Positions 43,188 through 46,692 of a stretch of 64,000 nucleotides of DNA are shown here, one piece after another. Position numbers and translations under genes: made by a program. Below the pieces are notes generated by a model. It was not told the origin of the DNA, did no database searches, and saw only the letters and a program-made list of their open reading frames with translations. The stretch is taken from NCBI RefSeq assembly GCF_001011115.1, contig NZ_CP008874.1, forward strand, positions 1,178,001-1,242,000, read 5' to 3'. The stretch's first letter is position 1. Every line of letters begins with the position of its first letter. Source of the stretch: Halanaeroarchaeum sulfurireducens. Lineage in GTDB: Archaea > Halobacteriota > Halobacteria > Halobacteriales > Halobacteriaceae.

Positions 43188-43613
43188 ATGAGTGAACAGG
43201 ACGAAACGCTGGAAGCCATCCGGCGCAAAAAGCGCGAGGAGCTTCAGCAGACCACGAGTGGAGAGCAGTCGGCCACCGAACCTGCCGACGCCCCATCCGA
43301 ACCCATCCACATCGAAGGTCCCGACCACTTCCAGGAGTTCACGTCGAAATACGACGTGGTGCTCGCAGATTTCTACGCGGACTGGTGTGGGCCGTGCAAG
43401 ATGCTCGAGCCGATCGTCGAGGAACTCGCCGTCGAGACGGACGCCGCAATGGCGAAAGTCGACGTGGACGCCAACCAGGCACTCGCACAGCAGTATCAGG
43501 TCCAGGGCGTTCCGACAATGGTCCTGTTCGGGCAGGGCGAGGTTGCCGAGCGGATCGTCGGCGTTCGAGACAAAGAGGACCTCCAGCGGCTCATCGAACG
43601 TGTTCAGCGATAA
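43188..43613 (+). CDS. trxA: Thioredoxin with charged N-terminal extension
   Basis: A 141-residue protein. Residues about 45-141 are a thioredoxin domain with active site WCGPC (Cys67, Cys70) and the cis-Pro in QGVPTMVLF. The first 40 residues form a highly charged extension beginning with a predicted helix (LEAIRRKKREELQQ) and an acidic linker. It reduces protein disulfides using electrons from the reductase encoded 2 bp downstream. Confidence 0.93.
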   Translation: MSEQDETLEAIRRKKREELQQTTSGEQSATEPADAPSEPIHIEGPDHFQEFTSKYDVVLADFYADWCGPCKMLEPIVEELAVETDAAMAKVDVDANQALAQQYQVQGVPTMVLFGQGEVAERIVGVRDKEDLQRLIERVQR

Positions 43614-43615
43614 CC

Positions 43616-44635
43616 ATGAGTGAAGAAATACACGACGTCGTCATCGTTGGATCGGGTGTCGCCGGCCACTCGGCCGCGATCTACGCCGCACGAGCGGATT
43701 TCGAACCCGTCGTCTACACGGGCGAGGACCCCGGCGGACAACTGACCCTCACGACTGATGTGGAGAACTTCCTCGGGTTCCCGGACGGTGTCAGCGGCAC
43801 CGAACTGGTTCAAAATGGCCGCAAACAGGCCGAGTCCTTCGGGGCTCGGTACGAACATCGCACCATCGTCGACGCCGACCTTTCGGAGCGGCCGTTCACG
43901 CTCGAACTCAACAACGGTGATACGGTCACGACCCGTGGACTCATCATCGCGACCGGCGCCAGCGCCCGCTGGGTGGGTGCCGAGAACGAGGACGCGATGA
44001 TGGGATACGGCCTCTCGACCTGTGCCACCTGTGACGGCGCGTTCCACCGCGGAAATGACGTGCTCGTCGTCGGTGGCGGCGACTCCGCGATGGAGGAGGC
44101 GCTGTTCCTCACGAAGTTCGCGGAGACCGTCTACATCGTCCACCGCCGCGAGGAACTCCGCGCCTCGGAGATCATGGCCCGACGCGCCGAGGAGAACGAG
44201 GACATCGAGTTCCTGTGGAATACCGAACTGGTGGCTATCGAGGGAAGCCGAGACGAGGGCGTCCAGGGTGCGAAACTCGTTCGCCACCCCGAAGGCCACC
44301 CCACGGAACGGATGGAGAACGGCGAAGGCGTCGAGGAAATCGACTTCGACTGCAGCGGGATCTTCTACGCCATCGGACACACCCCGAACACCGAGTTCCT
44401 CGAGGACACGCCGATTGCACTCGACGAAGACGGATATATCGAGACGGAATCCGGCATGACGACCGAGACGGGTATCGAGGGCGTGTTCGCAGCCGGCGAC
44501 GTCATGGACCGGGACTATCAGCAGGCGATTACCGCTGCCGGAACCGGAAGCATGGCCGCTCTCGATCTCGAAGAGTGGCTGGACGCCCAGGAGGAGTCGG
44601 CGACGGCCGAGACGGCCCCGGCAGCCGCCGACTAA
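43616..44635 (+). CDS. trxB: Thioredoxin reductase
   Basis: A 339-residue FAD-dependent disulfide reductase. The FAD motif GSGVAGHSAAIYAAR is N-terminal. The redox site CATC is at Cys136/Cys139. The nucleotide motif GGGDSAMEEA is followed by HRREELRAS, whose arginines normally bind NADPH phosphate. It reduces the thioredoxin encoded immediately upstream. A low-complexity Glu/Ala tail ends the protein. Confidence 0.94.
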   Translation: MSEEIHDVVIVGSGVAGHSAAIYAARADFEPVVYTGEDPGGQLTLTTDVENFLGFPDGVSGTELVQNGRKQAESFGARYEHRTIVDADLSERPFTLELNNGDTVTTRGLIIATGASARWVGAENEDAMMGYGLSTCATCDGAFHRGNDVLVVGGGDSAMEEALFLTKFAETVYIVHRREELRASEIMARRAEENEDIEFLWNTELVAIEGSRDEGVQGAKLVRHPEGHPTERMENGEGVEEIDFDCSGIFYAIGHTPNTEFLEDTPIALDEDGYIETESGMTTETGIEGVFAAGDVMDRDYQQAITAAGTGSMAALDLEEWLDAQEESATAETAPAAAD

Positions 44636-44638
44636 CGG

Positions 44639-44856
44639 GTACGTTCCCGTTTTCGGGGCGTTCTCGGTCGCGGTACGTTCTCGTTCGTAGTACGTTCTCG
44701 TTCGCGGTACGTTCCCGTTCGCGGTACGTTCCCGTTCGCGGTACGTTCTCGTTCGTAGTACGTTCTCGGTCGCGGTACGTTCCCGTTCGCGGTACGTTCT
44801 CGTTCGTTCGTTCTCGTTCGCGGTACGCTCTCGTTCGTAGTGCGTTCTCGTTCTTT
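44639..44856. repeat. 17-bp tandem repeat array, about 13 units
   Basis: Consensus GTACGTTCTCGTTCGCG, with variant endings GTA for GCG and CCC for CTC. Units run back to back from 44639 to 44856; the unit at 44792 is short by 3 bp and the first two are more diverged. The array fills the whole gap between the stop of thioredoxin reductase (44635) and the convergent stop of the HTH regulator (44858). The unit length is not a multiple of three and no spacers occur, so it is neither a protein repeat nor CRISPR. Confidence 0.95.
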
Positions 44857-44857
44857 G

Positions 44858-45268
44858 TTACGTCACGGGGGGCGGGGAGCCGACGTCTTCCGATCCCTCG
44901 CCGTACTTCTCGCGAAAGCGACCGATGAGGTAGCCGATCTGGGCGTACCAGTCGTTCAGCTGCTCCTGCATGGTATCGGCGACCGAATCGGGGTCCGTGA
45001 TCGTGTACTCGTGGTAATACCCACCCTGATCGTAGTTTATCTGCTTTTTTTGCACGAGTCCCGCTTCGAGCAGTCGCTGAACGGATCGATAGGCGGTCGA
45101 CCGCTCCCTGCCGACCCGTTCAGCGATTTCGTCGATGGTGAGTCTGCGTTCGGCTTCCGAGAGGAGCGTGAAACACTCGCGATCGAGTTCGTTTAAGTCA
45201 TAGAGACACTCGAGGAGCCCGTCGCACTCGAGATCGCGCTCGAGGTCCCGATTCAGGGCAGTGACCAT
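44858..45268 (-). CDS. TrmB-like winged-helix transcriptional regulator
   Basis: A 136-residue protein with a winged HTH at about residues 42-85 (LTIDEIAERVGRERSTAYRSVQRLLEAGLV) and a C-terminal helix pair likely for dimerisation. Three Cys residues fall in the first 35 positions (ECDGL, LECLY, DRECF), which could make it redox-responsive. It lies between the thioredoxin reductase and the FAD disulfide reductase genes, so a redox-linked target is plausible. Downstream it runs into the 17-bp array. Confidence 0.78.
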   Translation of the reverse strand: MVTALNRDLERDLECDGLLECLYDLNELDRECFTLLSEAERRLTIDEIAERVGRERSTAYRSVQRLLEAGLVQKKQINYDQGGYYHEYTITDPDSVADTMQEQLNDWYAQIGYLIGRFREKYGEGSEDVGSPPPVT

Positions 45269-45333
45269 ACTATCACTACATCGTTCACCCCGGGGGAAAA
45301 GTCTTGCGCGATTAGTTCAATACTCTGGGGCCG

Positions 45334-46692
45334 TCACTCGAGTTTGCTGTTCAAAACCTTCGCCGCGGTCAACACGGGATCCCAGGTCGGACCGAACGGA
45401 GGCGCGTAGGAGAGGTCCAGATACTCGACCTGTTGGACGTCCATCTCCGCATAGAGGGCCGTCGTGACGGTGTCGACACGGTTGGTGACGCCCTCCTCAC
45501 CCACCATCGCGGCCCCGATGACGCGTTCGGTGTCCGCGTCGGCGACCATCTCGATCTCGATGGCACTCCCGCCTGGGTAGTAGTGTGCTCTGGAACTCGA
45601 CGTGATGGTGACGGAAACCGGATCGAGTCCCGCTTCCCGGGCGCGTTCCTCGTCGATAATTCCCGTTCGTCCCGCCTCGAGGTCGAACGCCTTCACGACA
45701 GCAGTCCCGGCGATGGGGCCGGTCGGCGTCGGATCGCCAGTCACGGTCTGTCCGACGGCTCGGCCCGCCCGGTTCGCAGTCAACGCGAGCGGAACGTGAT
45801 CAGGCGCGCCAGAGACGACGTGCTCGGCTTCGGCGCAATCCCCCGCCGCGTAGACGTCGTCCGCGCTCGTCTCACCGAACTCGTCGACGGCGATCGCCCC
45901 GGTCTCGCCGATCTCGATGCCAGCCTCCTCGGCGAGCGCCGCGTTCGGATCGACGCCGACGCCGACGACGACCATGTCGACCGGGATGGTTTCGTCCTCG
46001 GTCCGGACCGCCTGGACCCGGTCGTCTCCGTCGAATCCCTCGACGCGCGTCCCGAGATGAACGTTCACGTCGTTGTCGCGGAGTTCCTCCTCGACCACCT
46101 CCCCGACCATGGATCCGAACGGATCGAGGACGTGCTCGAGCATTTCGAAGACGTGGACGTCCAGTCCGCGCTCCCGGAAGGCCTCGGCCATCTCGATGCC
46201 GATGTAGCCCCCACCGACAATCCCGACTGTTTCCGGTGCGCTGGGCCCGGAGCGGTCGACCGCTTCGCGAATGGCCTCGCCTGAAGGTGGGTCGTGAATC
46301 GTGTAAATGTCCTCGAGTTCGACCCCGTCGAACGGCGGTACGATCGCGGTGGCACCAGTGGCAATGAGCAACGAATCGTAGGACTGTTCGAAGGTCTCCT
46401 CCGGCGTCTCGACGGTGACCGTCGAGTCGTCCGGATCGATCCCCGTGACCTCGTGGTGTGTCCGGAGATCGATGTTCCGCTCCTCGATAAACTTCTCTTT
46501 GGGCACGGCGGTGATCTCCTCGATATCATCGAAGTCGCCTTTCACATAGTACGGAAGGCCACACGCCCCGTAGGATACCCACTCACCCTTCTCGAAGACG
46601 ACGACCTCCATCTCCGGATTCTCGCGTTTTGCCTTGCTGGCCGCACTCATGCCAGCCGCGTCACCGCCGACGACGACGAACGTTTCTGCCAT
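45334..46692 (-). CDS. FAD-dependent pyridine nucleotide-disulfide oxidoreductase, CoA-disulfide reductase/NADH oxidase-like
   Basis: A 452-residue enzyme with FAD motif VVVGGDAAGMSAASKA, a single redox Cys44 in SYGACGLPYY (the CoADR/NADH oxidase pattern with one Cys), a NAD(P) motif VGIVGGGYIGIEMAEAF, and a dimerisation domain at the C-terminus. It may reduce CoA or other low-molecular-weight disulfides, or oxygen. The ATG at 46692 fits the family. It shares strand and neighbourhood with the HTH regulator 65 bp downstream. Confidence 0.85.
   Translation of the reverse strand: MAETFVVVGGDAAGMSAASKAKRENPEMEVVVFEKGEWVSYGACGLPYYVKGDFDDIEEITAVPKEKFIEERNIDLRTHHEVTGIDPDDSTVTVETPEETFEQSYDSLLIATGATAIVPPFDGVELEDIYTIHDPPSGEAIREAVDRSGPSAPETVGIVGGGYIGIEMAEAFRERGLDVHVFEMLEHVLDPFGSMVGEVVEEELRDNDVNVHLGTRVEGFDGDDRVQAVRTEDETIPVDMVVVGVGVDPNAALAEEAGIEIGETGAIAVDEFGETSADDVYAAGDCAEAEHVVSGAPDHVPLALTANRAGRAVGQTVTGDPTPTGPIAGTAVVKAFDLEAGRTGIIDEERAREAGLDPVSVTITSSSRAHYYPGGSAIEIEMVADADTERVIGAAMVGEEGVTNRVDTVTTALYAEMDVQQVEYLDLSYAPPFGPTWDPVLTAAKVLNSKLE

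Follow-up and report, generated by a model that had tools for sequence, protein, structure and literature searches.

Within the 64-kb stretch of the Halanaeroarchaeum sulfurireducens genome that we analyzed (the window), a thioredoxin gene precedes a trxB-type thioredoxin reductase gene, which converges on the gene for a TrmB-like winged-HTH regulator; a pyridine nucleotide-disulphide oxidoreductase gene lies behind the regulator (Table 1). The gap from the trxB stop to the regulator stop measures 222 bp, and a 17-bp tandem array spans 218 bp of it. The first-pass annotation described the array as exactly filling this convergent gap, which is true to within 4 bp: unit 1 follows the trxB TAA (44633-44635) after three bases (CGG), and one base lies between unit 13 and the regulator stop codon (44858-44860, minus strand).

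Table 1. Features of the trxB-regulator locus (window positions) and the CRISPR array of the same genome (position on C1).
Feature	Position	Strand	Remarks
trxB-type thioredoxin reductase (Pyr_redox_2)	43616-44635	+	Left convergent neighbor; sister-species orthologue 86% identical
17-bp tandem array	44639-44856		13 head-to-tail units; consensus GTACGTTCTCGTTCGCG; 12 x 17 bp plus unit 10 of 14 bp
TTTT followed by C	44650-44653	+	In deviant unit 1; only T-run of at least 4 in the gap
TrmB-like winged-HTH regulator	44858-45268	-	Right convergent neighbor; sister-species orthologue 83% identical
Pyridine nucleotide-disulphide oxidoreductase	45334-46692	-	Behind the regulator
CRISPR array	C1 840840-844503		30-bp repeat GTTCCAGACGGACCCTTGAGGGGTTGAAGC; 56 copies, i.e., 55 spacers

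The initial description of about 13 head-to-tail 17-bp units with this consensus was confirmed, with one unit being shorter. Units start at 44639, 44656, 44673, 44690, 44707, 44724, 44741, 44758, 44775, 44792, 44806, 44823, and 44840, and the last ends at 44856; apart from unit 10 (44792-44805), all are 17 bp and in register. TRF reports a period of 17, 12.9 copies, and a score of 278, whereas the top score among 50 shuffles of the window that preserve dinucleotides is 71. The array is thus far above chance, and its 13 units place it within the prokaryotic minisatellite definition of at least four head-to-tail repeats of 10-200 nt (PMC6749651). Unit conservation is 82% matches. Among full-length units, divergence is highest in the first two and the last two (units 1, 2, 12, and 13, with 3, 3, 3, and 4 changes from the consensus). 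Further in, unit types come back every four units: unit 3 matches unit 7 exactly, as 5 does 9, and units 4 and 8 are one base apart. The GCG and GTA unit endings and the CTC/CCC switch noted at first pass are present, but they do not strictly alternate. As also noted, nothing else in the window has this form; TRF lists just one further repeat there, a 21-mer of 2.2 copies.

We used a background sample of 864 kb in evenly spaced stretches (40% of the genome) and a threshold of at least 2.8 copies and a score of 80. This sample holds 19 arrays, 12 of which, counting the target array, have an intergenic midpoint; these 12 have periods of 17-69 bp and unrelated units. Based on gene calls from a simple codon-usage model, which places stops reliably and starts approximately, three intergenic arrays fall in convergent, three in divergent, and six in codirectional gaps, versus 115, 140, and 418 gaps of these types. 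There is no excess of arrays in convergent gaps in the 864-kb sample (3/12 arrays versus 17% of gaps). At 222 bp, the trxB-regulator gap is long but not extreme, as 18 of 150 convergent gaps are longer.

Another intergenic array, at C1:1510446-1510734 (L100:10446-10734), consists of 10.7 perfect copies of the 27-mer AGGCCGACAGGCGAGAGTGAAATACAC. It is more regular than the 17-bp array and is absent from three relatives; its uniformity must mean either that it expanded recently or that it is under constraint. Other near-perfect intergenic arrays, with unrelated units, are found at L105:3481-3678 (69 bp), L106:12581-12681 (19 bp), and L144:772-1150 (70 bp).

The 17-bp unit builds no other array in the genomes searched. 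A search of the H. sulfurireducens genome for more arrays of the unit, a check proposed at first pass, returned none besides 44639-44856; outside the array, the only matches are four isolated 15-mers with one mismatch. We also searched 391 other Halobacteriales genomes with a pattern of two units, allowing up to 2 mismatches. The pattern has 10 hits in H. sulfurireducens; two distant Halobacteriales genomes have a single isolated hit each, and the remaining 389, congener included, have none. None of the 391 genomes, including the sister species, contains an array of the unit, and neither do the viral contigs searched.

The congener (G001) is colinear with H. sulfurireducens on both sides of the locus by blastn. 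Its trxB-regulator gap is filled by a minus-strand gene (L137:7839-9121) labeled M20-type peptidase by eye from its sequence, with no family scan; H. sulfurireducens has no orthologue of it (the best hit, at 39%, covers roughly half of the gene). In G003 and G009, which belong to another genus of the family, trxA and this regulator are convergent with their stops 11-12 bp apart, and the regulator is followed by the oxidoreductase gene, as in H. sulfurireducens. Given the M20 gene in the sister species and the short gap in these two relatives, the gap is evolutionarily labile rather than conserved, a spacer of ~200 bp is dispensable there, and the locus tolerates convergence with no spacer. One reading treats the array as a scar left by loss of an M20 gene, in line with the presence of the gene at this spot in the congener and its absence here. 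However, other loci in the family place trxA directly against the regulator, which makes it no less likely that the congener gained the M20 gene. The 25-bp trxB 3' flank of the congener holds one unit-like stretch, GTAC-TCCCGTCCGC, which can be aligned to one unit; the alignment score, which concerns a single short match tested post hoc, was equaled in 14 of 2000 shuffles. This stretch may be the seed from which the array grew.

The TrmB-like regulator adjoins trxA/trxB genes in many Halobacteriaceae (43188-46692 in the window). It is upstream of and codirectional with trxA/trxB in G011, G016, G018, and G019, and convergent in Halanaeroarchaeum and in G003/G009. This neighborhood across the Halobacteriaceae suggests that it is a regulator of the thioredoxin system.

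Coding use of the array would have contradicted the first-pass reading, but we detected no coding signal in any of the six frames. Per-codon log-odds range from -0.06 to -0.40, whereas the distribution for genes has its median at +0.33 and its 5% quantile at +0.14; no frame has genome-like codon usage, and a coding role is in practice excluded. There is no Rfam match over 43500-46000, and a sigma-70/terminator scan, which applies a bacterial model to an archaeal host, found nothing in the gap. The plus-strand RNA of the array has a somewhat more favorable fold than its shuffles (z -2.6), and the minus strand not clearly so (z -1.4); better-than-shuffle folding can come from internal repetition alone.

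The plus strand of the gap contains 79 T versus 13 A, and each unit carries TTC/TTCTC, with T-runs of at most 2 in the regular units. The minus strand of the gap has no T-run of 3 or more (the plus strand has no such A-run). T-tracts are rare in 3' flanks of this genome, too few to discriminate termination. Haloferax volcanii terminates at T-stretches ending in C, and its intergenic sites are T-stretches with TC (PMC7237163). By analogy, a putative weak trxB terminator may sit at the TTTTC of unit 1, outside the regular repeat.

The array as a whole could be a transcript boundary, at which the convergent transcripts of trxAB and the regulator would be terminated or kept apart, for instance through repeated pyrimidine-rich signals on the plus strand. 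Its location exactly between convergent stops, the T-rich plus strand, and the Haloferax-like TTTTC are consistent with this. The short T-runs of the regular units and the minus strand's lack of any longer run are not, nor is the absence of enrichment in convergent gaps, while in relatives the regulator and thioredoxin gene converge across just 11-12 bp and in the sister species a gene occupies the gap. We therefore consider a boundary role improbable, and the earlier proposal that the array separates convergent transcripts is not supported. A boundary or protein-binding array that evolved recently at this convergent redox locus and serves this species alone has a slightly smaller chance still.

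Fainter again is the prospect that the array binds protein, as an iteron-like, operator, or chromosome-organizing element, perhaps recognized by the adjacent TrmB-like regulator. Although regular direct repeats do adjoin the gene of a DNA-binding regulator, the array is absent from all relatives carrying that regulator, has no second copy in the genome, and lies at 3' ends rather than at a promoter. It also has no origin nearby: C1 has Cdc6 C-terminal domain (Cdc6_C) hits near 0.002 and 1.98 Mb, versus 1.22 Mb for the array, and the domain is also hit on plasmid C2. The suggestion of a protein phased at 17 bp fares no better, since the array is missing in every relative searched and a 17-bp period does not amount to an integral number of helical turns. 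Replication-origin iterons, which would lie beside orc1/cdc6 or another rep gene, were rejected on the positions of the Cdc6_C hits. The least credible option is an assembly artefact: repeat number can be misjudged in short-read assemblies, and a miscounted copy number is possible, but many units are told apart by point differences and the array is just 218 bp, which makes a false array unlikely.

Among known systems, the array is most like the prokaryotic satellites of Subirana and Messeguer (2019; PMC6749651), with at least four repeats of 10-200 nt and a single occurrence in the genome, scattered among unrelated arrays; however, the halobacterial arrays in that study are mostly multiples of 3 and coding, whereas this one is 17 bp and intergenic. 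The 'Indel_PolyRepeat' of Haloquadratum walsbyi (PMC3119063) likewise consists of short tandem repeats in a haloarchaeal chromosome, but there a copy-number difference between strains has been shown, while the present array was read in one strain. The CRISPR array of the same genome, whose repeat GTTCCAGACGGACCCTTGAGGGGTTGAAGC is reported with 55 spacers in H. sulfurireducens HSR2 and 57 in M27-SA2 (PMC4866403), also has direct repeats in one orientation, but the 17-bp array has a different repeat and no cas genes alongside. CRISPR identity was rejected because the units abut, with no unique spacers. Beyond these three papers and PMC7237163, we found nothing directly relevant in the archaeal VNTR literature.

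Altogether, we interpret the array, with a probability of roughly 0.8, as a lineage-specific, noncoding, probably neutral minisatellite of H. sulfurireducens and a candidate VNTR without specific function. This interpretation is supported by a real array, a unique unit, a labile orthologous gap, the lack of coding signal, and similar arrays genome-wide. In the H. sulfurireducens lineage, a short stretch beyond the trxB stop would have been duplicated and would have grown to ~13 units through replication slippage and unequal exchange. Selection presumably tolerates the array because the two convergent genes both end at this gap, so that the repeats interrupt neither a promoter nor a ribosome-binding site. 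Slippage and unequal exchange homogenize the core of an array and let its edges decay, and the diverged edges and lag-4 recurrence of inner variants match this usual picture. The local duplication and fast-evolving, VNTR-like character proposed at first pass fit the species-specificity, eroded edges, recurring inner variants, and unrelated arrays elsewhere. We infer slippage origin, neutrality, and copy-number variability; as counterpoints to neutrality, the unit sequence shows fair conservation (82% matches), for which selection could also account, and the plus-strand RNA folds at z -2.6. None of the results calls for a function of the array. The minisatellite most likely does nothing specific, and its copy number is predicted to differ among strains.

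The two known isolates, HSR2 and M27-SA2, have chromosomes about 97% identical (PMC4866403), and the array matters little unless as a strain marker to distinguish them. With ~14 intergenic minisatellites per Mb in our sample, counted less strictly than in PMC6749651, this small archaeal genome appears rich in unrelated minisatellites, which is a slightly more general observation on slippage in haloarchaea.
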